Of a DNA stretch of 64,000 nucleotides, positions 416-64,000 are shown one piece after another. Under the pieces are notes generated by a model. That model did no database searches. It worked only from the letters and a program-made list of their open reading frames with translations, and was not told the DNA's origin. A program made the translations under genes and the position numbers. This DNA is from Polychytrium aggregatum (taxonomy: Eukaryota > Chytridiomycota > Chytridiomycetes > Polychytriales). The stretch lies in NCBI RefSeq assembly GCF_025602895.1, contig NW_026516206.1, positions 558,001-622,000 of the forward strand, given 5' to 3'. Every line of letters starts with the position of its first letter. Positions within the stretch are counted from its first letter, which is position 1.

Positions 416-882
416 CGCTGGGAAAGGACTTGGTGTGCGGTGCGTTGGAGAAACACGGGCGTCGATTCGAGGCCAGAGCGAGGGAGAGGAGACCGAGGCA
501 CCCGTTTTCGCCAACGATCCAAGACAGGCCAAATTGAACCAAGGTCACGTGGACGGCTGTGGATTGGCTGTCTGCGGACCATGGAGCTGATGGCAGATGG
601 AAGGAAGCATGGCAACGGGAGCATATCTATTGATGCCATGGAGAGACTGGTTTGCAGCCCGCTCATGGTGGAGCCGGATGCATCGCGGCTCTGAGTGTCC
701 GCAGCCTGGACAGACTACTCGGAGACAGCGATGGCCTCGCAGACGACATGTGAACAGGAGCCAAGCGTCTGGCTGACCCAGTTTTGGTCCAGCAGCAGCA
801 GCCGATTCTCACTGCCAGGTGGATAGCTTCGCGGCAATTTCTGGTTCGGAGGGCAGCAGGAGACACACGGATGAATACAACA
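416..882. other. Intergenic spacer
   Basis: Spacer between the start of the BIR gene and the 3' end of TIP41, both on the minus strand. It should hold the BIR promoter and TIP41 3' UTR. I see no TATA box, RNA gene or repeat in it. Confidence 0.5.
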
Positions 883-2486
883 TCAGCCACGGACCATGCT
901 GGATATCCATACTTGGGCAAACTCGACGATCGGCAGCAGTTGCTGGGCTGTGGTTGCAGAGCGATTGAACCCAGCTATTCCACACACACACACACCCAAA
1001 TCTTAAGGCCTGGTCACCACGAAAATAGAGCATAGCCGGCTGGCTCTCGGCTCTCGGCTCTCGGCTCTCGGCTCTCGGCTCTCGGCTCTCGGCTCTCGGC
1101 TCTCGCAGTGCGCTGGGTATTACCTTGGTCACCTCTGAGTACGTGGCCGCTCGCGAGGTGTATTCCCTGACGAGAATGCTCTTTCCGAATTCGTGATAGA
1201 TGCGGGTCTCGTTGATGCGGAACGTGACGTTGTCGACTCGCAAGAAGAATCGCAGCAGCACCAGGAAGCACGAGGGCATGACTCGCTGGGTATGGAGAGG
1301 CGGTACAGAGTGTCAACATGCCGAAGAACTGCAAGGACGAGGTGGGTCCCTCTTCTGGCAAGCACCGAGCTGCAAGTGAATAACAAGACTTACAATCCGG
1401 GCCGTCATACAGGAGATGCCATTGTCATGCAGTTCGTCTTCATACAAGACCAGCTCGTCATAGAATAATATGGGCTCTGGGAGCCGCAGACGGTCGAGGT
1501 CAACCCCGACCAATGACGGTTCGAACTGGAGAGGGCAATGCAACAAGTGAGCAACACTCTGGCCACGTAGTTCCGGCGCCGCTGCTGCAGGACACGGGGG
1601 GTACCTTAGCGCCAAGCGAGGAAGAGAGAGTGCCCGAGTACGACGACAAGTAGATCCAGTTGTAGGGCTTGACGACATCCTTGATCTGATCGTTGGCTTC
1701 GAGGCTGGGATCGATGGCTGGTTGTCAGCAGTCGGCGATGAGCCATGCGTCGAGATCGACAAACAGATCCGGCAGCCAAGATGCAGCCCGGCCCCTCCCC
1801 GGGTCGGAGCAATTGCCGACATAGCACCACATCGACCCCAACGGCATCGGCGTTGTGGAAGTGGAGGCGATACCTCATCTTGGTCCAGTGCTCGGCGTGA
1901 GCGACCTGGACAGACTTGTGTTCGGACTCGGGAATGCTGGCGACGTTGCGAAGGGCATCGAGGGCGCTGATGGAGTACTGGAAACCCGACGAGTGCTTGA
2001 GTTCGATAGCATTGTTTCCAAAGAACATTTCTGGAAACGGCATCTGGATCTCCTTTGAGGCACTAGAGAGGAACGAGGATTCCCCGGGATGAGGAGGTGG
2101 GTGATGGTGAGCTGCGGCTTTGAGTCTGCTTGGTAAATGGTGGTGGTGACTGTGGCAGGAAATGCCATCGCAACGATAGGAAACGAAGGGCGATGCTTGA
2201 CGAGCAGATGCGGACACTGAGGATATGCGACAAGCACGTGTGATGGTCGAGCGGCTCGATCGGCAAACAGGAACGTAGGGTACTTGTCGATCTCGGCAGA
2301 GTTGAATATGGGGTGCTTCTTTGTGGTGATGGTCCAGCCAGCATGTGCGATGGAGTTGACGGCGCCGGAGGAGAATGTGGTGTGCGGGACAGGATGGCTG
2401 TGGTGGATGGTGGTGCCGGCCTTGGGCTCTGCCGGAGCAGCCGAGACGATCGAGACCGAGGCAGGCGGGAGGGTGCGGTTGAGCAT
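883..2486 (-). CDS. TIP41: TIP41-family protein (TOR/PP2A pathway regulator)
   Basis: Six exons, all phases closing: 2486-2284, 2062-1874, 1704-1605, 1525-1394, 1285-1124, 942-883, giving 281 aa. Diagnostic family blocks appear in order: WTITTKKHPIFNS, the PEMFFGNNAIELKH block, VKPYNWIYLSSYSGTL (family VKPFDWT...YKGTL), LPEPILFYDELVLYEDELHDNG, MPSCFLVLLRFFLRVDNV and a terminal QLLPIVE. TIP41 binds the PP2A-like phosphatase system (Tap42/PP2Ac) downstream of TOR and acts in cytosol and nucleus. The length is typical of the family. The last exon is only 60 bp and was placed by the LLPIVE match plus the cccag acceptor in phase 0. Intron 5 contains a heptamer minisatellite ending about 20 bp from the donor. 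Start ATG at 2486 is the first in-frame Met before the conserved block; a further upstream exon cannot be excluded. Confidence 0.9.
1042..1106. repeat. Heptamer minisatellite (GGCTCTC)n in TIP41 intron 5
   Basis: About nine consecutive copies of a 7-bp unit lie inside the last TIP41 intron, just downstream (on the minus strand) of its splice donor at 1123. Seven-bp units would shift frame if retained in mRNA. Confidence 0.85.
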
Positions 2487-3342
2487 GGAGCGAGTGTCGG
2501 GGACTGGGAGAAGAGCGATATCTAGGGCCGGGGTCTGGCCTCGTCTCAGCGCGGACGGCTTTGATGGAGGTGATCGGGACGAAACAGGATGCCCTTGGCT
2601 CGGAGCCGCTTTTCTTGGCCCAGAACGCACATGCCCAGCCAACGCACCCGACAACTCCAAAGCCCACAGACTCGATATCCGCGCCGCCGTGCTGCGATGC
2701 GAACGCTTCGTCCAGAGGCCCCTACAATCCTTCCCTCCACCATCGCCGGCATGTTCAAGGACGCCATGTGCGGTCGCTGGCTCGTCTCGCGGCAATCTGG
2801 ACGACACATTCGAGTCTGCGCTGTGTATTCGTCCTCGCTCGAGCTGCGACTCATGCATGGGAATCAGACGACGGCGCTCGGCGTGCTGCAAACGGCTCTC
2901 TCCTCCGCAGATGGCTCTCTCCTCCGCAGGCCGCGGGCGAAGCCGTCTGATTTCTCATGTGCTGCGGGCGATGCGGGCGATGGTTGAACCCAAAAGTGAC
3001 GACTTGCTCATCCGCCCCCAGTGCCGCGTTCCACAACGGCGCAATCGCGCTGCGCACACTGTGCGAGTGTTTGTGCAGCTGTGCTGTCGCGACTCACCAT
3101 TGGTCAGCGCCCGGTTGATAGCCTGCGTTTTTTGGGGGGGGGTTGCTTCGTTTTCTTGCTGGCTTTGGCTCATCGCAGGCACCCGCCCTCATCAGCCGCT
3201 ATCTCGCATCGCTCCTGCTGTCCCATCTGCTCCTGCCTGCCTGCCTGCCTGCTCCGTGCTTGCCATTTCCTTAAAGCCAGCAAGTGCAGCCTGATTGCAC
3301 CCTCGCTCCACTGGCTCTCGTGCTTGCTCGCATCTCCGCAAA
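2487..3342. other. Divergent promoter region TIP41 / IDO
   Basis: An 856-bp spacer between the start codons of divergently transcribed TIP41 (minus) and the dioxygenase gene (plus). It contains a G-run near 3132-3140 and a CCTG tandem near 3236-3251 and is pyrimidine-rich just before the IDO start. ORFs across it are GC-driven shadows. No clear TATA box was found. Confidence 0.4.
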
Positions 3343-5584
3343 ATGCAGTCCGCCGTGCCCTCGACATGGACTCCTCCCAGGCTGGAGGACTACCTGATAG
3401 ATGCCGTCTACGGATTCCTGCCGGTCAACCCGCCGCCCCTTCGCCGCCTCCCGGAGTACTTTGAGCCTTGGGAGTTGCTCCTGGACGACATCTCGGCTCT
3501 CCTTCTTGTTGGTGCCCTCCGCACCCGCATCGAAAAGGTCCGTGTCGCTGTGAATCTGCCGCACGAATTCCTCGCTCTCTGGGCAGCCACGACTCCGGCT
3601 CCAACCCCGGCTCAATGCAGCCGGCATGGAGCCATCGCCATTCATTCGCCAGTGCTGCAACAGAGCGCCGCATATTCATGCGGTCGCCGGCCAAGCGGTA
3701 TCTCTTACCCTCCCCCCTCTGCTTGTTGTACTCTCCACCGACAGCTGCCGGTCATGGATACCTCCAAGCTTTCGAATCTGCGGGAGACACAGCGGGCATA
3801 CCTCGTGCTCTCATACTTGGCTCATGGCTATGTCTGGCAGGACAAGACCAATGTCGCGCAGGTAGGGAGTCGGCCAGGCTGCTGTGGCTGTCCTCGTCCA
3901 AGTGCCAAGCGGATCGGCACGAGTGCCTCTCATTCTCCCGCCTTCTTTTTGGTCTTCTTGAGGACGTGAATCGGGCTGCACCCAATCTCCTGTGATATGC
4001 TTTGGTGCATTGTCTGACATTGTCTGACATTGTCGCCGCGGACTCGGGGGGCCTCCGTCTCGTGCCCTGGACTCGCAGATCCTTCCCAAGAACATTGCCG
4101 TCCCTTGGAACGAGGTCTCCACAAACCTGGGCCACAAGCCCGTGCTGTCCTATGCCGCTGTCGAGCTCTACAACTACAAGCTTCTGGATCCCGAAGGACC
4201 GTGTGACCTCAGGTAGCGGAAATGCGAGAGCACACAGCAGTCCGAGACTCGAACCGAGAGAACCTCGGCTCTGAGGGTGCTGCTCGAGGATGCATGCTCA
4301 CCCTTTCTGTTCGCGGCGACACAGCAACATGGCAACGCTGCACACCTTCACCGGCGGCACGGACGAGTCCTGGTTCTTCCTGGTCAGCTTGGGCATGGAG
4401 GCGGTGGGCGCCCACGCCCTGCCTGCCATTGTTGCCGCACAGTCGGCCATTGCCCGCCATGATCTCCCGGTGCTGTCGCAGTCGCTGTCTACCATCGCTG
4501 ACGCCATCAAGAAGATGGAGGACGTCCTGGTGCGGATGTACGAGAAGGTAAGCGCACCCGTGTACCCGAGCGCAGATGGACGGGTGATGGAGAGCAACTA
4601 TGTGTTGGAGGAAGGTGTGTCAATCGGCGCGGATATCCGTCCGGGTGAAAGCACATTCCCTTCAAGGACGTGCTCGCTGATACTGCCCTTGCTTCCTGCA
4701 GAACGACCCGCACATCTTCTACTACCGCATCCGGCCATTCGTCGCTGGATGGGAGGGCTCCGACGACCTGCCCAAGGGTCTGTTTTATGAGGGCATCCCC
4801 GACGAGAACGGCTCGTGGTCGACGGCAGATGGATCGTATCGCAAGTATGCCGGCGGTAGTGCTGGCCAGAGTGCTCTCATCCACAGCATCGATGCCGCCC
4901 TCGGAATCGAGCACTTTCCGACCCGCAACCGGGCGCTCATGAACATCAGCAGCGCCACCAATTCGCCGTCGGCATCCAACCCGGCCCTGCACGGTTCCCC
5001 AGCCGTGCCCAAGCCTGCTGCCGGTACAGCCGAAGCGGCAGACGCCCCCCGCAAGAACGTCATGCTGGAGATGCGCAACTACATGCCCGGCCCCCACCGA
5101 GCCTTTGTCGAAGCCATCGCCAGCGGTCCGTCGATCAAGGAGTTTGTGCGCACTCTCTCGGACGTTGTCAAGTGCCAGCCGACCGAGACCAGCGAGCAGA
5201 TGCGGCAGGTGTGCGCTGAATTCAATGTGTGTGTCGATGCCCTCAAGAGCTTCCGCGATAGCCACATGAAGATGGTGGCTCTCTACATTGTCTCGCAGTC
5301 GCGGAAGCGGACGCAGACTCAGACCGACGCCAACTCGCCAGACTCCCGCAGTCGCCAGATACCCAACGTAAGTGTGCGCGAATGCCAGGGTGTCTGGCTG
5401 GGCAGCAGGGGCGACAGCAGCGTGGCGGCATGATCGATTCTGCGAGACTAACGCCGAGTCGCTTCCTCTCTTGCTTGCCGACACCCAGTCCCTGGCTGCC
5501 CGTGGAACAGGCGGCACCAACCTGATTCCTTTCCTGAAGCAGTCACGGCAGGAAACCGTGGATGTGCGTGTCGATCTCGAATAG
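3343..5584 (+). CDS. IDO/BNA2: Indoleamine 2,3-dioxygenase (tryptophan to N-formylkynurenine)
   Basis: Six exons with consistent phases: 3343-3537, 3745-3861, 4079-4212, 4325-4547, 4702-5367, 5489-5584; 476 aa. It is a haem dioxygenase of the kynurenine/NAD+ pathway (fungal BNA2). Family blocks: GFLP near the N-terminus, LSYLAHGYVW, IAVPWNEVSTNLGHKPVLSY, ELYNYKLLDPEGP, FTGGTDESWFFLV, FYYRIRPFVAGW, YMPGPHRAFVEAI, FRDSHMKMVALYI and GTGGTNLIPFLKQSR. By analogy with human IDO1 His346, the His in FRDSH (about residue 411) is the proximal haem ligand. Residues about 300-340 form an Ala/Pro/Ser-rich insertion typical of the variable linker between small and large domains. Length is in the range of fungal IDOs. 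The product is expected to be cytosolic. A Fanzor-derived element begins about 150 bp after the stop. Confidence 0.95.
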
Positions 5585-9172: not shown

Positions 9173-12100
9173 ATGACCTCCAAGGCCGATGATTACAATT
9201 CCACCGTCTTTGTTGGCAAGGCCGAACAGCTGAAGCAGGTCTGCGCCCACATCGAAGAGAAGGGCTTCATTCCCAAGGAGCTCGTCCAGAACGAGGTTAC
9301 CTGGTTCTACGGGTAAGCCTGGACTGTCTGTGTGTCGCCGATCACACCCTGATCCGCACCCTGATCGATGATTGATTGTGCATCACGCTTTGCGGCTTAC
9401 TGCATGCGAATACCGGCGCTTCCATGCCGGCAGCGGCTGCTACTGCTACTGTTGCTGCAGCTTGCCCTCGTCATTGCATTGCGCCCCAGCCATGTTTGAC
9501 CGGCCTGGCCCTGGACTGGCGTGGTCTGGTCTGGTCGCCTCCCCCAATCATCGGGTCTGTCGAGCTCCATCCTGACGTTTGATCTCTGGTTTCCGACTCT
9601 ATCTGTCACCCAACAGCAACCTCGGTATCGACGACATGTACTTCTCCGGCGAGACTGTCGAGACTGTCGCCCAGCACATCATGGCCCTCTACGGCTCCAA
9701 GCTCTTGGCCTACATCAAGAACGACACCGTTCTCGACATCAACCTGGTCCGCGAGACCGACGACGGCGCCGTCTACATCCACACCTCCAGCCCCGGTGTC
9801 TCCAACCTGACTGGCCCCCAGCACGAAGCCCGCATCGACTCCAAGTTCCTGGACCAGAGCGCCACCAGCCACACTGCCTTCCGCCTCGAGACCTACCGCT
9901 CCTCAGGCACGGTCTCGTCGTCGTTTGCCACCCAGCTCCGCACCTACTTTGTGCGCAAGTGCCATTTTGTCAAGGACGACCCCACCCCCGAGGAGTTCAC
10001 CGACATCCGCAAGATCTCGGACGTCACCTTCCTCGAGAAGGCCACCGAGAACACCCTCGTGACCTACTCCAAGATCATCAAGGAGGTCCTCAACCGCCAC
10101 GGCCCTGTCATTGAGATGTTTGATGTCCCCAACAGCCGCGAGAAGCGTGTCGTGATCGGCTACCGCCAAAAGACCACCCAGTCGTTCTTCTCGGCCCTGT
10201 CGGATCTCTACCACTACTACGATCTCTACTCGACCCGCAAGTACGTCGAGCAGTTCTCCAACGGCGTCACCGTCATGTCGCTGTACCTCAACCAGCTGCC
10301 CAACAGCAAGGCGCCCCCGATCGAGAGCTCCGTCTTCCAGGTCATCAAGGAGGCCAGTTTGATCTACTGCATTCCCACCGCTCCCCTCCGCCTCTTCTTC
10401 CAGACCGGCCAGCTCAGCGTCCAGGAGGCCATGTACGGCCAAGTCGGATGGATCTTTGCCCAGCACTTCCTCAACCGCCTCGGCAACGAGTACGCTGCCC
10501 TGTCCTCGATCCTGGACCTGCAGAACTCTGCCCACGTCGAGGTCCTCACCAAGATGAAGAAGCGTCTCCGCTCCGACACCTTCACCCGCGAGTACATCCT
10601 CGACATCATCAAGCTCTACCCCGAGCTCATCAAGGCCTGCTACGTCAACTTTGCCATGACTCACTACATCAACCCCGCCAAGAACACCCTCAACCCCTCC
10701 ATCTCGTACCAGCGCCTGCAGAGCGTCCCTGCCCTCTCGGAGGAGGCCCTCCTCGAGAAGATCCGCAAGACCGTCACCAACAACCACGAGTACATGATCT
10801 TCGAGTCGTACGTGGCCTTCAACAAGCACGTCCTCAAGACCAACTTTTACCAGCCCACCAAGGTTGCCCTGTCCTTCCGCCTGGACCCCTCGTTCTTGCC
10901 GAGCCTCGAGTACCCCATCAAGCCCTTTGCCCTCTTCCTGGTGATTGGCAGCGAGTTCCGCGGCTTCCACATCCGCTTCCGCGACATTGCCCGCGGCGGC
11001 ATCCGCATCGTCCGCTCCCGCAACAAGGAGAACTACAGTATCAACCTGCGCTCGCTCGTCGACGAGAACTACGGTCTTGCCTCGACCCAGCAGCGCAAGA
11101 ACAAGGATATCCCCGAAGGCGGCTCCAAGGGCACCATCCTGCTGGACATTAACCAGCAGGACAAGCCCCGAGAGGCCTTTGAAAAGTACGTTGACTCGAT
11201 CCTCGATCTCCTCATCCCCGGCCAGTCGCCCGGCATCAAGGAGAAGATCATTGACCTGTACGGCAAGAACGAGATCCTCTTCTTTGGCCCCGACGAAGGC
11301 ACTGCCGACTACATGGACTGGGCCTCCCAGCACGCCCGCAAGCGCGGCGCCTCTTTCTGGAAGGCCTTCACCACCGGCAAGAGCCAGTCGATCGGCGGTA
11401 TCCCCCACGACACCTTTGGCATGACCACGCGCTCCGTCCACCAGTACGTCCTCGGCATCTACCGCAAGAAGGGCCTCAAGGAGGAGGAGATCCGCAAGCT
11501 CCAGACTGGCGGCCCCGACGGCGATCTCGGCTCCAACGAAATCAAGATCTCCAAGGACAAGACCATCGCCATTGTCGATGGCAGCGGTGTCCTCTACGAC
11601 ACCGACGGTATCCACCGCGAGGAGCTCCTGCGCCTGGCCTCGAAGCGCCAGATGATCAGCCACTTTGACGTCAGCAAGCTGTCGCCCAAGGGCTTCCGCG
11701 TCCTGGTTGACGAGACCAACGTCAAGCTGCCCGACGGCACCATCGTCGAGAGCGGCTTCAAGTTCCGCAACGAGTTCCACCTGCACCCCCTTGCCGGCGC
11801 CGACATCTTTGTCCCGTGCGGTGGCCGCCCCGAGTCCGTCGACCTCAACAACATCAACGCCCTCTTTGACGAGAACGGCAGCGCCCGCTTCAAGTACGTT
11901 GTCGAGGGCGCCAACCTGTTCTTCACCCAGGAGGCCCGTGTCCGCCTCGAGAACGCCGGCGTCGTTGTCTTCAAGGATGCCTCGGCCAACAAGGGTGGCG
12001 TCACTTCGTCCTCGCTCGAGGTCCTGGCCGCTCTGTCCTTCAGCGACGACGAGTTCAAGCAGCACATGCAAGTCCTGGACGGCGTCGCGCCGGCCTTCTA

Positions 12101-12633
12101 CACCCAGTACATCAAGGCCGTCCACCAGTTCATCGAGAACAATGCTGCCCTCGAGTTTGAGTGCCTGTGGAAGGAGAACCAGCGCACCAAGAAGCCCATC
12201 TCGATCCTGTCGGACGAGCTGTCGTTTGCGATCGTGCGTCTGAACGAGGAGCTGCAGCACACCACCCTGTGGGACAACGTCCCGCTCCGCCGCATTGTGC
12301 TCCAGGAGGCCTTCCCCAAGATCCTGATCGACACCCTGGGTCTCGATACCCTCATGAAGCGCGTCCCTGAGAGCTACGTCAAGGCCATCTTTGGCAGCTA
12401 CCTGGCCTCCCGATTCGGTAAGCATCGCGCATGTGGGTTTTGGGTTTTGGGTTTTGAGCACACTTGGATCCTGGGTATGCATGAGTGACAGCAACAGCAA
12501 TAGCGACTGACAACTGACCCATCTCCTGCCGCCTTGCTCCTCTGCTTCTCCAGTCTACAAGTACGGCATCGAGCCCAGCCAGTTTGCCTTCTTCGAGTTC
12601 ATGGCCCCCTACTTCTCCAAGATCGAGCAGTAA
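9173..12633 (+). CDS. GDH2: NAD-specific glutamate dehydrogenase, large (GDH2, ~115 kDa) type
   Basis: Three exons, 9173-9312, 9617-12417, 12554-12633, phases 2 and 1 closing; 1006 aa, normal for the fungal 115-kDa class. It oxidises glutamate to 2-oxoglutarate and ammonium with NAD+, feeding carbon from amino acids into the TCA cycle. Recognisable blocks include RDIARGGIRIVRSRN, PEGGSKGTILLDINQ, FFGPDEGTADYMDWASQHA, SIGGIPHDTFGMTTRSVHQYV, VPCGGRPESVD, YVVEGANLFFTQEAR and NKGGVTSSSLEVLAAL (dinucleotide-binding and catalytic parts of the family). Codon use is strongly biased to C/G third positions, as expected of a highly expressed gene; this creates an 865-codon open frame on the opposite strand, which I treat as a shadow. 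The ATG at 9173 follows a long pyrimidine-rich leader. Confidence 0.96.
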
Positions 12634-58255: not shown

Positions 58256-58257
58256 TA

Positions 58258-58355
58258 CACTTTATTCAGAAAAAAACGGGACAATATAGCCGTTTCCATG
58301 AACATGTAGTATGTGCTGTGCTTGCGTCAAGCAAAGCCACAAGAAATAAAACAGA
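58258..58355 (-). ncRNA. Candidate guide RNA (omega/fRNA) of the Fanzor gene
   Basis: The 98 bp between the Fanzor stop codon and the element end. Contains the GGCTT/AAGC stem, the 22-nt conserved core and an AATAAA within 9 bp of the end, so a transcript ending at that signal would extend into flanking DNA, as expected for a guide-bearing RNA. Position follows known TnpB/Fanzor practice; transcription is not shown. Confidence 0.45.
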
Positions 58356-60727
58356 TCACTTTGGCAGCCTCCGAGTGAAGACCGCCGGTCGCTCTCCGGT
58401 CTCCACAATCGGAGTGCACACTGTGATCATGTTGCGCGCCGCATTGACGTCGCGATTCCACACTGCCCGGCAGCTGGGATTCTTGCAGCTCCTGACAAAG
58501 TGGGAATTCGCAACACTGGGCGCATCGAGTCCTTCCAACCGAACTGGCTCCAGGCACTTGGAGCACACCTGCGAGGTGTTGAACTCGTTCGTCGAGGCCA
58601 CCTTGACACTTCCATGATGGTGATTGGGACGGCGTCGGTGGTGCTCGAACTGCTCAAAGTACTGAGCAAACCGCTGCCTCCGAGGGCTGGATGCATAGCC
58701 CTTGCCTTGTCGCCATGACGCATTGCCAAAGGCGATCACCACATCGGTCCGTATCGGGGCGTGCTTCAGGACGGCCTTGCACATCTTGTCGACGGCCACT
58801 TGGCGCCTCTTGTGGCCCGTGAAGCGATGGTGACGGGCCTTCTTGCCAAGGTGGAAGTCGAGCTGCACTCGCAGCTCCGGTCGCAGGACATGGGTGAGAT
58901 GGACCTTGAAGGCTTCCGAGACGACACCTTGGGCGAGGGAGTGGTCGACATCCAGGTCTCGATGCCGAGTCGATACTTCATGATATTGTGCCACTTGGTG
59001 TTGGACGTATGGCCACACATTTGCTGGTAGTGGCCATTGGAGAATGAGACCACCTCGTCTTGGTGGCCCGGTGCTTGGATGACCGCCGTGAAGATGGAGC
59101 CGACGCCTGGGTCGATTCCAATCCAAGTGGTGCGGTTGGGGTCTGGGTCTCCGATGTGGGCCTGGATACGCTGCTCGGAAGTCGGAGGAGGCTCGATGGT
59201 CTCGGTGTGATCGGTTCGAGGCAGAAACTTAACGAGGCCGATGGTGCATCCAATGCCATCGGTGCTGATCTCGTAGTTGAACAGCTTGTGATTGATATCC
59301 CGGTCACGGAAGAGGGAACTACGCAGCTTGAAGCAACTGCGCCAGAGACGATCCTGGTTGTTGACACCGTCCTCACCTTCTTCCTTGAGCATGTCCCGGG
59401 TGAGTCCAAGACGATGTTCGGTGTCAAGGAGTTGCCAGAGAGTGACGGTGTCAATCTTGACATACTTGGCCTTTGTAGTGCACAGAGGAACCATCGTGCA
59501 CACGGCCGGAGGAGTGTCGACGGCGAGCTGCTTGAGGGCCCACTTGATCCTGGCGGCCAGCTTGTTGATCTTGGACTTGGTGGTGCCGAGCTCAGACTTG
59601 GCCGTGGTGAACCTCTTGTCGTCGGAGGGAATGCCTTGGGCAGTGAGCTCGTCCAGCTTGGTCTGGCGCTGCAACTCGGTGACTCGGAGGGCGGGCATGT
59701 CACAGTCGATCCACTTGTGGACATTGTCGACCATCTTGTCCCGGGCGAGGATTCCCACATGGTGTGAGAGGCGATGGAGGGCCCGGAAGCGGTCCTGGTC
59801 GTTGCTGTACCGAAACTCGTCCAGGACGTGACCAAACTCGGGATAGAGGAACTCGAGATCGGCCTTGGGTGGTGTCTGCCCTGGTTTCTCGAAGAGCTCG
59901 AGACAGGCCTCGATGGCTTCGTGCTTATGCTTGTTGGCTGGGAAGACGGCAGCGCAGAAGCGGCGAAGGAGTCGCCAGTAGGCCAGATTGAGGTGGGTGG
60001 TGCAGTTGGTGGCATAGGCATTGACAGCCAGGGTGAGAAGCTGACTGTGAGCACCATCAGGCAGACGAGGGGCCGGAGGCAGGTCTGCGTGCCGAGTGGT
60101 CTGGTAGTCGCGAAAGGAAGCGACCAGATGCTCGTTGTATTTCTTGGTATCCCTGGCCGTCGAGAGGGCATCGGCCTCGACAATCGTGAAGCATTGGCGG
60201 ATGAATGCAGGGGTGGACTTGGAGATGACGGGGACGGGAAGATCCTGCTCGATGCACCGGAGGATGTGCAGGTTGAGCAGCCTGGATGCCTCGAACTGGA
60301 TCTGGGTCATGGCCTCGACGGTGGCCTGGATCTTGTCGCGGAGAGCGGGATTGAGACAACAGCCATCCATCGTCTGCTTGAAGCAGCTGAACTGAGGGGC
60401 GGATGACCTTCCATCCACGAGAGGGACGACAGAACTCTTGAGGGGCCGGTATTTGGGACATTTGCTGGTGTTGCTTCGCTGATGATCGGTGCCATCGCAC
60501 TGGCGACATCGCTTGCCAGTACTCGAGGAAGTAGATGGACCAGGCTCGGTGGGATCGACATCCATTGGATCTGCAGAAGCAGTGGTGGTGAGCGACGGAG
60601 CAACAGACGACCAAGCATGCGTGGGGTCAGAATACGAACCAGAGACAGGCTCCGACTGTGACTTGGCTTTCTTGGGCCTGGGTGGCCGAGGCTGGCCATC
60701 ACCGGTACCCTTACGCTTCGGAGGCAT
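58356..60727 (-). pseudogene. Fanzor (eukaryotic TnpB homologue), one frameshift
   Basis: ATG 60727 opens a frame that runs to 58766; the second half continues in another frame to TGA at 58356-58358. The shift lies near 58918-58928 (net -1). Read together they give about 790 aa. N-terminus: MPPKRK and PRPPRPKKAK, NLS-like; a zinc-knuckle-like C-x2-C-x4-H-x7-C at residues 74-90. Central helical region about 110-510. RuvC-I: WIGIDPGVGSIF, Asp codon 59113-59111 (residue 539). After the shift: VVIAFGNASW, then NEFNTSQVCSKC with the Glu (58586-58584) that Fanzors use in place of the canonical RuvC-II Glu, then a second Cys pair (SCKNPSC), and RuvC-III WNRDVNAARNM (Asp 58451-58449). End: TRRLPK. 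Fanzors are RNA-guided DNA endonucleases carried by transposons. The TATA box at 60858-60863 argues against the in-frame ATG at 60916. The frameshift may be real decay or an assembly error. Confidence 0.9.
58918..58928 (-). other. Frameshift site in the Fanzor gene
   Basis: Upstream frame makes sense up to the TPSPKV segment; downstream frame from EAFKVHLTHVL. Both frames overlap for 360 bp, but each reads as protein only on its own side of this point. No plausible intron is available (gap would be 2 nt) and there is no slippery heptamer. Confidence 0.7.
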
Positions 60728-60857
60728 GGGGGCAGAGGATGCTGGATGCCTGCCAGTGGTACTGGTCAGAGCAGAGACTTTTTTTTTATCGTACAATAGC
60801 GCGATGATCAGATCAAGGCGAGATGAGGGAAGAAAGCAGCAGGACGAAGGTGTGGCA

Positions 60858-60863
60858 TTTATA
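60858..60863 (-). promoter_or_regulatory. TATA box of the Fanzor gene
   Basis: TATAAA (minus strand) within GGGTATAAATGCC, about 130 bp upstream of ATG 60727; the element seems to carry its own promoter. Confidence 0.6.
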
Positions 60864-60979
60864 CCCGAGAGCAGGAGCCCGTCTTTGCGGGCTGGTTGGG
60901 GAAGCGACCTGTTCAAAAATCGCCGAGAGGTTCAAGCCAGGGATGTGAACGTGAGAACGGCGGCTTGATTGGAGGGAAC

Positions 60980-61318
60980 TCAACCCCAGAAGCGCATCGC
61001 TCGCTCAATCAGCCGTGGGAAGACATCTGGAAGCACCCTCCGAACGGCAGACTCAAACAGGGTCACCATCCCGACCCTGAACCCCTCAGACGCATTCAGC
61101 GCTCCTGCCTTCCTGTACTGATGCTTCACAACCCCAAAGAAGTTCTCGATGGGATTGAAGTCGGGCGAGGCAGGTGGGGTGAAGATCACTGACCATCCTC
61201 GGCGCTCGATGCAGTCCAGGACAGCCATTGTCTTGTGCATGCTGACATTGTCCATCACAATCACAGAGTCGTCTGGGAAGCTCGCTCGCTCAAAGAACTC
61301 GACCATCGAGTGTGTCTT
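60980..61318 (-). pseudogene. DD34E transposase (Tc1/mariner-IS630 type), 5'-truncated
   Basis: C-terminal part of a DDE transposase: SVIVMDNVSMHK carries the second Asp, PPASPDFNPIENFFGVVK the final Glu, spaced D-x34-E as in Tc1/IS630 families; the reading frame ends with RFWG at a stop (60980-60982). The first catalytic Asp and the DNA-binding N-terminus are missing because the sequence breaks at 61319-61320 into a short Fanzor-derived element; nothing similar resumes beyond 61623. It lies just upstream of the Fanzor TATA box on the same strand, an order consistent with one mobile unit encoding both proteins. Non-functional as it stands. Confidence 0.85.
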
Positions 61319-61319
61319 G

Positions 61320-61621
61320 CAGTTAATCCAATTAAAAGCGGGACACCCGGGTTTTTGACCATTCATCGAATATTTTGTTCCCCAATGTTATCGCGCGCTG
61401 GCCATGACCATTCACAAGTGTGTCCAAAAGCATCATTCACCGCCCGCACTCCGAGACCAGTGTGCAGGTCGATTGTGGAGACCGGAGAGCGACCGGTGAT
61501 ATTCACTCGGAGGCTGCCAAAGTGATCTGTTTTATTTTTATGGCATAGCTAGACGCATGCCATCACAAACTACATGTTCATGGAAACGGCTGTGCTGTCC
61601 CGTATTTTTCTGAATAAAGTG
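61320..61621 (+). mobile_element. Short Fanzor-derived element (copy 4, variant subfamily)
   Basis: 302 bp starting CAGTTAATCCAATT and ending CTGAATAAAGTG before TA (61622-61623); the left side lacks TA. Its middle differs from copies 1 and 2 and lacks the RuvC-III codons, keeping only the last ~20 Fanzor codons. The 3' tail has changed at several sites but keeps the 22-nt core; the stem becomes GGCAT (61542-61546) with ATGCC (61557-61561). It ends 190 bp from the stop of the NHE gene. Confidence 0.8.
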
Positions 61622-61810
61622 TAACCGATCACAGGACGAAGCGCATCCCCGAGCGACCAGCCCACAATCTATGTTTGCTGGTGCAGGCACAGCGGTGCGG
61701 AATGGGGAGGAGCAGAAGTAGAAGCAAAGGAACAAATAATGTGTGGGCCTTTGCTCTGAGGAAATGCGAGAGCATGAACACGCCGAATGCAACCGTGGCT
61801 GCCCCTTGCG

Positions 61811-64000
61811 CTAGACCTTTTCGGACTGCTCAGGGACAGCACTGATCTCGACATCGCTGAATCCGCCGGTGGTGCTTCGAGCCACCGATGCCTTGCGGTT
61901 GTTGCTCAGCGACGCCCTGGTGAGCGAGGCCTTCCGAGTGAGCGAGTATCTCGATGTGGCGTTCTCGTCCTCGGGAGCCTTGGCCTTTTCCTCGGTCTCG
62001 CTCTTGGGCATGGTAAAGAGAGGTCGGATATACCTGGTCGGCAAGAGCAGTGGCGACGGTAACAGCATTAATATTTGAAATGGGGCAGTAGCAGTCGACG
62101 ATATGGGTTAGTGTTGCTTGCGATTGCAGACCACTCAACATGTGGCAGGGGCTACTGTGCAGGGCATGCATAGAATCGGTGTCGGGGTTGGGAGGCAACG
62201 TCAATCAATGCAATCTCGAAGACGTACTTCATGTCCAAGCTCTGCAGCCAACCATAAACCACGCGATCGCCTGAACCAGGATCGTCGTCGTGCTCGTCCC
62301 CATCAGCGAGCATCTTGTATTCTTCGCCGTTTTCGCGCTTGGTAATCTCCTTGGTCGAGGTATGCTGCTCGGCCACAGCACCAGCAGCACCAGCAGCAAC
62401 GTCGCCAGCGTCAGGGCTGCTAATCTTGAGCCACTTGAGCATGTACGGCGTGAGACCTCCCAAGATGATCACCGTGATGACCACCACCATGACAGTTGTT
62501 CCAAAGATCATGCCCTTGACATCGGCATCAAAGACGGGATGCTCCAAGAATGTGACGCCAAGGGCAAAGGCCACGGCGCCGCGGAGCCCAGAGAACCACA
62601 TGAGAACCTGCTGATTGAAAGGGATGGCGGTCTCGGGATTGCGACGGTGGATGAGATTGCTGGAGCCCAAGATAAGAAATATATGCGTTCTAGACACCAG
62701 GATCGAGATCTGGCACGCGCAACCAGCGAGAGAATGTCAGATCTCGTTCAGCAACGTTATCGAAGCGTGTGGTGGGCGAAGGTGGGTCGAGACAACGTGG
62801 GCACCAACATGGGCTCCAATGAAACCACCGGGCATGGCCATGCGACTTACACAGGCAAACAGAATCATCAAGGGACTGTATGTGGTCTTGCCGCCAAAGG
62901 ACAAGAGCCCGAGACCCAAGTAGATGAAGATGAAGGACTCGCACATATGTCCAATGACTCGAAGAAACACCTGGCGGTCGTGTTGTTGCATGGCAGTTGG
63001 GTTGAGTAGAGGTTCAGTGGAGTGGACGTGGTAGCGGTGTTGGGACAGGGAATCAGATAAACACAACCCGGTCGTTTAGGATGGCTGCGAGCGACATACA
63101 TCGGCGAATGACTGGCACAGAAAGATTCGACGGTTGCGATAGCAGCGAGGCCCAAAGCATGTACAGGGGCCCACAAGATCAAACAGGCGCCATCTTGCGT
63201 CCTGACACACATAAGCCGCCAGAGCCGATGATGGGCACACTCACCTTGATGAAGCTCGCCGATTCGGGCGACAAGTTGGGGTAGGCGTAATGGGCCATGG
63301 CAATGCCGCAGAAGAAGATCGAGATGATGCCCGTGAGTCCGAGCACATCGGCCAAGAGATAGGACGTGTACGCAAAGACGATAAGCATCACGCTTTCATA
63401 AGTGGTGGCCTCATCTTCGTGGACACGGATGTGCTTGGTAATCTTGGCAAAGATCAGGCCGAGGATGATGCCGATGGCAAAGGAGCCCAGAAACACCCAC
63501 GCCGACTGCAACACGCTGAGGACGAGCGACGTGGCCGACAGCCTCATCTTGGGGTCGGCAATGTCCGTGAAGAAGCGGTACAGGATGATGGCCACGGCAT
63601 CGTTCAGAGCAGACTCGCCAAAGATCAGGATGTAGAGGCGCTTGTCGACCGTGGGCGGGAGAAGTGACAGAACCGTCACCGGGTCCGTGCTGCTGATGAG
63701 CGATCCAAACACGAGCGACTCGACAAAGCTCCAGGGGGAAATGAGCTTGCTGAAAAAGTACATCAGGCCCGATGTCACGAATGTGGAATACAGCGCGCCG
63801 AGAAAAGCCAGCGCGATGATCAGCAGGACATTCTTGAAGAACGTGAGGCGCTTCAGGCTGAATCCACCCTGTCGATCCGACGGGAAGATACCATCAGAGA
63901 GAGATCAGTCCCGATGGCAACATGGACGAGCGCGAGGTATCGGTGGAGCGCTGGGATCTGTGATGACGAGAGTCTGGCGAGCCGCACCACAGTCCGAGCG
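61811..64000 (-). CDS. NHX1: Na+/H+ exchanger, endosomal NHE/NHX type; 5' end outside window
   Basis: Visible exons, minus strand: 63868-63245, 62970-62851, 62709-62228, 62033-61811, phases 0, 0 and 2 closing; 482 codons seen. Blocks: GGFSLKRLTFFKN, LVFGSLISSTDPVTVLSL (FGSLxSATDPV), LYILIFGESALNDAVAIIL (the GESxLNDAV motif with the paired Asn-Asp), YTSYLLADVLGLTGIISIFFCGI, ESFIFIYLGLGLLSF and MWFSGLRGAVAFAL. These are CPA1 signatures closest to endosomal NHE6/7/9 and yeast Nhx1. The exchanger moves luminal H+ against Na+/K+ in endosome and vacuole membranes. The tail is soluble and Ser-rich (RYSLTRKASLTRASL, possible kinase sites). Sequence upstream of 63868 is probably intron up to the window edge. 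Confidence 0.93.

Follow-up and report, generated by a model that had tools for sequence, protein, structure and literature searches.

A frameshifted Fanzor1 gene and the probable high-copy Tc1/mariner transposon family that carries it in Polychytrium aggregatum

Introduction

A gene on contig NW_026516206.1 of Polychytrium aggregatum carries the motifs of a Fanzor RNA-guided nuclease and is interrupted by a change of frame. It lies in the window, the whole stretch of 64,000 nucleotides analysed here, and raises the question of whether it belongs to a working system or a dead one, and of what kind of element carries it. What Fanzors do biologically is said to be little understood (PMC10711439). 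Our answer is that positions 58256-61319, minus strand, very probably hold a damaged member of an abundant Tc1/mariner transposon family, in which complete elements encode a DDE transposase as well as a Fanzor1. Elements of this kind are already known; the preference for T, or (W)T, in the left flank is new here.

The nuclease gene and its frameshift

The gene (58356..60727, minus strand) starts with an ATG at 60727 and ends with a stop at 58358-58356; its intact relatives encode 787-790 residues. The frame opening at this ATG extends beyond the RuvC-I motif GIDPG (59105..59119, minus strand), which is identical in loci L003 and L082. A second frame holds RuvC-II, NEFNTSQVC (58563..58589, minus strand), with the alternative Fanzor-type glutamate at 58584-58586, six residues ahead of the first zinc-finger Cys, and RuvC-III, WNRD (58449..58460, minus strand); both of these were also read by pattern check on L003. 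The NLS-like basic stretches and the TATA box listed along with these motifs by the initial annotation can be read as well, the former as an N-terminus MPPKRKG..PRPKKAK, the latter as a TATAAA-like box, a putative promoter element, at about 60855-60866. That annotation is accurate in what it describes; the minus strand and the Tc1/mariner surroundings were not given there.

The downstream piece matches Pfam model PF07282 (Cas12f1-like TNB) at 1.1e-9. When the genome that contains the window (64.7 Mb, 418 contigs) was searched at the protein level, 68 places were scored of 753 first-look candidates; the upstream piece matches the 67 of them other than the window with 92-96% identity over its in-frame part, and most of these have open frames near 800 residues. 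Because of the model match and these 67 places together, chance is excluded as the source of the window gene. Aligned with 20 intact copies, the coding region lacks a single base at about 58921 (minus strand) that is present in 20 of 20, and has no other change of frame, just as the single net -1 shift near 58921 had originally been called. The deletion is private to the window copy among 51 loci, being absent from the 50 other copies examined. One of these, L002, was considered as sharing it and was ruled out, its own one-base deletion lying 21 bases further upstream in the gene. These comparisons support reading the window gene as a probable Fanzor1 with one net -1 shift.

Assignment to Fanzor1

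Bao and Jurka give the Fanzor motif as D-X(125,275)-[TS]-[TS]-X-X-[C4]-X(5,50)-RD (PMC3627910), and L003 contains it, with D539, TS at 718, 178 residues between them, four Cys, and NRD with D760. The fingerprint given for Fanzor1, DPG in RuvC-I plus a glutamate six residues before the zinc finger (PMC10711439), is present as GIDPG and NEFNTSQVC (E-x6-C). The TDG motif of the WED region, also said to mark Fanzor1 (PMC10711439), occurs as STDGIG in the window's family and as TTDGVG in L082, in a stretch that would correspond to the WED region. The Fanzor of L003 further matches the TNB domain at 1.7e-9 and the guided_TnpB model at 1.9e-6 (27 bits, under its 100-bit cut-off).

A TnpB-like or Fanzor2-type nuclease, or a relative that is not a nuclease, might be imagined in place of a Fanzor1. 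The strict search expression published in PMC10711439 does not match L003, whose second Cys pair is CxxxxC with a spacing of 22, where the expression has CxxC and 12-18; in L082 the second pair is CxxC. Single-sequence searches of solved structures returned no Fanzor at E up to 1, nor up to 10, the best matches of the latter search being two LaTranC chains (E 0.28 and 0.38). Against this, when a profile of four sequences, drawn from the window's family and that of L082, was run on 177,635 PDB sequences, the first two hits were both Fanzor1 proteins: SpuFz1 of Spizellomyces punctatus (E 0.0019, weak), whose alignment begins in the TDG region and extends to the C terminus, and GtFz1 of Guillardia theta (E 0.062, weak), aligned in the zinc-finger region only. 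The DPG, the alternative glutamate and the Fanzor1 TDG motif are all present, and the carrier is a Tc1/mariner element, not IS607. We regard the alternative as very improbable and keep the assignment to Fanzor1, as the comparison with known Fanzor1 proteins proposed at the outset bears out.

The transposon family

A pattern for the left end of the element, allowing at most two mismatches, has 368 matches genome-wide, and the reversed control has none. Since several of the listed left flanks recur on two contigs (20 of 100 rows repeat another), independent insertions are fewer than match counts. Element ends are sharp across copies, the longest copies measuring about 3745 bp, and the full element encodes a 310-residue DDE transposase followed, downstream and in the same direction, by a Fanzor of about 790 residues. 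The transposase of L003 matches DDE_3 at 2.1e-20 and the IS630 family model at 8e-32 (110.9 bits against a cut-off of 100). In most loci read, both ends are bordered by TA: 26 of 30 have it at the right end, and 25 of the 28 that possess a left end have TTA there. Both ends carry a run like AAAAAACGGGAC in inverted orientation and are otherwise asymmetric. A DDE transposase, TA at the ends and terminal inverted repeats are thus all found, as expected of Tc1/mariner (IS630) elements. Three diverged stretches (76-83%) run across one element junction.

A second Fanzor1 family is represented by L082 (G000:C402:39800-44300, 717-3512, plus strand), which has 42% identity to the window's family, a long intact frame of about 930 residues and the same motifs. 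Further matches to the PF07282 zinc finger occur at G000:C124:405504-405698, C279:35225-35422 and C235:472213-472338, in open frames of 477, 447 and 127 residues, respectively. By these sequence matches, several Fanzor or TnpB-like families seem to be present in the genome. No relatives were found in a set of 5.8 billion proteins, with 8000 candidates scored, or among viral contigs.

Structure of the window copy

The interval 58256-61319 (minus strand) corresponds to the family reference from position 680 to the right end, with a 96% match. The right end (58256..58423, minus strand), with its TA at 58256-58257, is the region of the predicted guide-RNA scaffold and overlaps the 3' end of the Fanzor gene. 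At the other side, 60980..61319 (minus strand) encodes the C-terminal part of a Tc1/IS630-type (DDE_3) transposase, the family of which was assigned from an intact gene. Adjoining it is a non-autonomous mini-element in inverted orientation (61320..61623, plus strand), with its left end at 61325-61413 and its right end at 61458-61623. The Fanzor gene is flanked by inverted repeats of 63 and 80 bases, because the mini-element and the right end of the main element stand in opposite orientations.

The main copy has no left end and no N-terminal part of the transposase, so it would be dead as a transposon even if the frameshift were absent. Judged from its sequence, it is broken in more than one way and is a relic, a dead member of a Fanzor1-Tc1/mariner family of about 3.75 kb. 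The suggestion of a candidate active system accordingly suits the family, as a candidate only, and not the window copy. A genome search with 1.76 kb of adjoining DNA matched only the window's own place and so gave no second allele of this site. Pieces of a Na+/H+ exchanger adjoin the element (62152-63778, minus strand), and the window also contains an NAD-dependent glutamate dehydrogenase gene (9579-12488, plus strand).

The right-end fold can pair the terminal TA inside a stem, a feature described for Fanzor1 guide RNAs (PMC10711439). The fold is not more stable than those of shuffled sequences (z = 1.04), and covariation found too little to work with, the right ends being so alike that only six rows fell under 93% identity.

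Intactness and selection among copies

The sample consisted of the 30 left-end matches that come first in contig order, each of them exact. Twenty-four are full-length, four are internally deleted (L032, L038, L044 and L060), and in two (L051 and L054) the right end was not found. The 24 full-length copies include L036, which occupies the same site as L017. The intact relatives suspected from the window alone are thus plentiful: the Fanzor gene is intact in 15 of the 24, the transposase gene in 7, and both in 5; 10 copies have a broken transposase and an intact Fanzor, 2 the reverse, and 7 have both genes broken. The Fanzor gene is more often intact although it is 2.5 times longer than the transposase gene; this suggests that lineages with a defective transposase and an intact nuclease have multiplied. 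The transposase lesions in copies of this type are of several kinds. The commonest two transposase frame sizes are 325 and 283 residues, and the short transposases of L026 and L033 end in PIENFFGVESPPIWG, just past the presumed last catalytic residue.

For the Fanzor codons, with L001 and L002 left out, pN/pS was 0.33 both for the 35 intact copies and for the 14 broken ones; for transposase codons 1-261 it was 0.20 (12 intact copies) and 0.21 (38 broken copies). These ratios show constraint on the source elements. The Fanzor ratio, equal in broken and intact copies, gave no sign of continuing selection on Fanzor in transposase-dead lineages.

Flanking motifs

The matches listed number 100 of 153 for left flanks, 80 of these unique, and 100 of 219 for right flanks, 89 unique; the outermost column of each flank pattern excluded G by design. 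Among the unique left flanks listed, T precedes the TA in 78 of 80, and A or T precedes that T in 66 of 80. Further out on the left side these 80 flanks show background composition only, as do the 89 unique right flanks listed after the right-end TA. Genome-wide, eight exact left ends follow a base other than T (C, A or G), a number that includes sites represented on two contigs; one is a mini-element on C61/C101.

In S. punctatus, the conserved CA before the left repeat, together with TA, equals the measured TAM, CATA (PMC10432273). Because the left-flank bases of SpuFz1 proved to be part of its TAM, our analysis predicts 5'-(W)TTA-3' as the cleavage motif, or TAM, of the present family, with the right flank serving as guide.

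The T preference could instead belong to the transposase, the asymmetry at the left end being a target preference of that enzyme alone, with Fanzor irrelevant to where copies persist. One transposase type is common to the copies read, and all four mini-elements without a complete Fanzor gene (L032, L038, L044 and L060) also follow TTA, as this reading would have it. Such mini-elements, however, retain a right end that includes the presumed guide-RNA region, and might rely on Fanzor supplied in trans. A target preference of the transposase also fits poorly with the lack of a comparable signal beside the right-end TA, although TA itself is symmetric, and the few left ends after C, A or G, one of them a mini-element, imply that insertion there is possible. 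In a similar terminal repeat, TACAGTCAATCCAGAAA(A/G)AAACGGG (100 of 134 matches listed), 8 of the 49 unique flanks have T before TA. Six strings of a flank type that recurs (ACAAGATACT and kin), each with T, are left out of this count, which rises to 14 of 55 when they are included; the repeat is an imperfect control, being of right-end type wherever it could be placed beside a Fanzor, and not the left end of a relative that lacks Fanzor. We consider transposase preference alone a serious contender with the odds leaning moderately against it, and retain (W)TTA as the predicted TAM.

Among the unique right flanks listed, 11 of 89 begin with CAG directly after the TA, where about 1.6 are expected. 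At L002, the CAG right flank comes from the end of a decayed related element. The flank ACAAGATACT recurs beside TACAGTC-type ends on many contigs, as if the end were embedded in a larger repeat.

Variation at paired sites and linkage between copies

Four locus pairs have both flanks in common (L017/L036, L083/L041, L004/L015 and L013/L016). Within the element these pairs differ at 388 of 14427 positions (2.7%), and in the flanks at 2 of 3081 (0.07%); three of the four also show internal indels of at least five bases. A fifth pair, L012/L056, has only the right flank in common: the right flank of L012 is identical to that of L056/L078 over 105 of 105 aligned bases, and the left flanks are unrelated, reflecting either a rearrangement through the element or a misjoin.

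A probe for empty alleles covered 11 sites, of which six had a second assembled copy and five had one copy only. No empty allele was found at the six sites with a second copy; in each the flanks lie 3.5-3.7 kb apart and the site is occupied, and the two copies of a site differ in this spacing by 1 to 123 bases. The lack of empty alleles was set aside as support for homing, since near-identical haplotigs may be assembly duplicates; a haplotig pair, judged from bit scores, has about one mismatch in 1480 bp of flanking unique DNA.

Linkage was measured at 286 informative sites among 46 copies, for which the r2 expected by chance is 1/46 = 0.022. Mean r2 fell from 0.40 for sites no more than 10 bp apart to 0.08 (10-30 bp), 0.026 (30-100 bp) and 0.023 (greater distances); transversions alone gave 0.03 at 30-120 bp and 0.02 beyond. 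A common deletion, 870-1011, carried by 21 of the 46 copies, has a single strong association between positions 500 and 1600, to a site at 4 bp distance (r2 0.67), the next-highest r2 being 0.26. Three internal deletions, of about 243, 126 and 141 bp, whose breakpoints coincide at the resolution of BLAST, are found in every one of the four pairwise combinations. No other repeat family that might have served as a linkage control was found in the fetched flanks.

Low linkage could arise from copy-to-copy repair or from assembly scrambling, and given so unusual a pattern inside the copies, base-level accuracy within the repeat is not to be taken for granted. The frameshift in the window, together with part of the differences between copies, may therefore be an artefact of assembly or polishing in a high-copy repeat. 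Linkage between variants of the 46 copies is almost gone at distances above about 30 bp, a scale nearer to that of k-mers than to usual conversion tracts; same-site pairs that differ strongly inside the element and hardly at all in the flanks, the half-shared pair L012/L056, a frameshift private to one locus of 51, and haplotig flanks nearly identical over 1480 bp all fit such an origin. Base polishing, on the other hand, would not produce three deletions in all four pairwise combinations, and long open frames are kept in most copies listed. The chances of an artefact seem to us close to even, falling slightly on the lesser side.

A retention model and comparison with known systems

In the reading favoured here, the element would work as follows. 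The transposase would excise it and reinsert it at a TA. A guide RNA would be transcribed from the right end together with the Fanzor gene's 3' end, and the DNA directly to the right of the insertion would serve as its guide. With this RNA, Fanzor would recognise and cut a site that lacks the element, 5'-(W)TTA plus the right flank, and an occupied sister or homologue would then provide the template from which repair copies the element back. Template switching during such repair, after excision or after Fanzor cutting, is one way in which variants could be exchanged between copies. A further reading, which we offer as unlikely and speculative, is that Fanzor enforces copy-back repair at empty sites and that, with hundreds of templates to switch between, the family turns into a freely recombining population, in which second alleles are occupied, interiors differ inside identical flanks, and variants and deletions are reshuffled over short range; if true, it would be the first population-level footprint in a eukaryote of the benefit of a Fanzor to its transposon. 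Abundance, two-gene elements and a clean flank motif make the family a useful test bed for the roles of Fanzors: hundreds of ends, intact nucleases, transposase-broken copies and tiny derivatives allow the retention model to be examined in one genome, and with the cleavage motif readable from genome flanks, the (W)TTA prediction is directly testable.

Among solved structures the best profile match is to SpuFz1 (PDB 8gkh), encoded by SPu-1 of Spizellomyces punctatus, a Fanzor1 element. The present family shares with SPu-1 the duplication of TA, conservation of the bases ahead of the left TA, deletion derivatives ("ghost" elements) retaining both ends, and a right-end guide RNA, which is predicted here (PMC3627910, PMC10432273). 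SPu-1 encodes only a Fanzor, of 633 residues; the present element encodes a Fanzor of about 790 residues and, in 7 of 24 copies, an intact transposase. SPu-1 is credited with 17 full-length copies in one study and with 19 full-length copies among 42 loci in the other (PMC3627910, PMC10432273), compared with 368 left ends here, and its TAM is CATA in place of the TTA predicted here. PUl-1 and PGv-1 combine, as here, a mariner-type transposase and a Fanzor1 in one element with TA duplications (PMC3627910); PGv-1 is described there as single copy, whereas the window's family is high-copy, with many intact members and derivatives of about 300 bp. GtFz1 (PDB 9cer), the second-best profile match, has a measured TAM, TTAAN, that starts with TTA (PMC10432273), as does the motif predicted here apart from its leading W.
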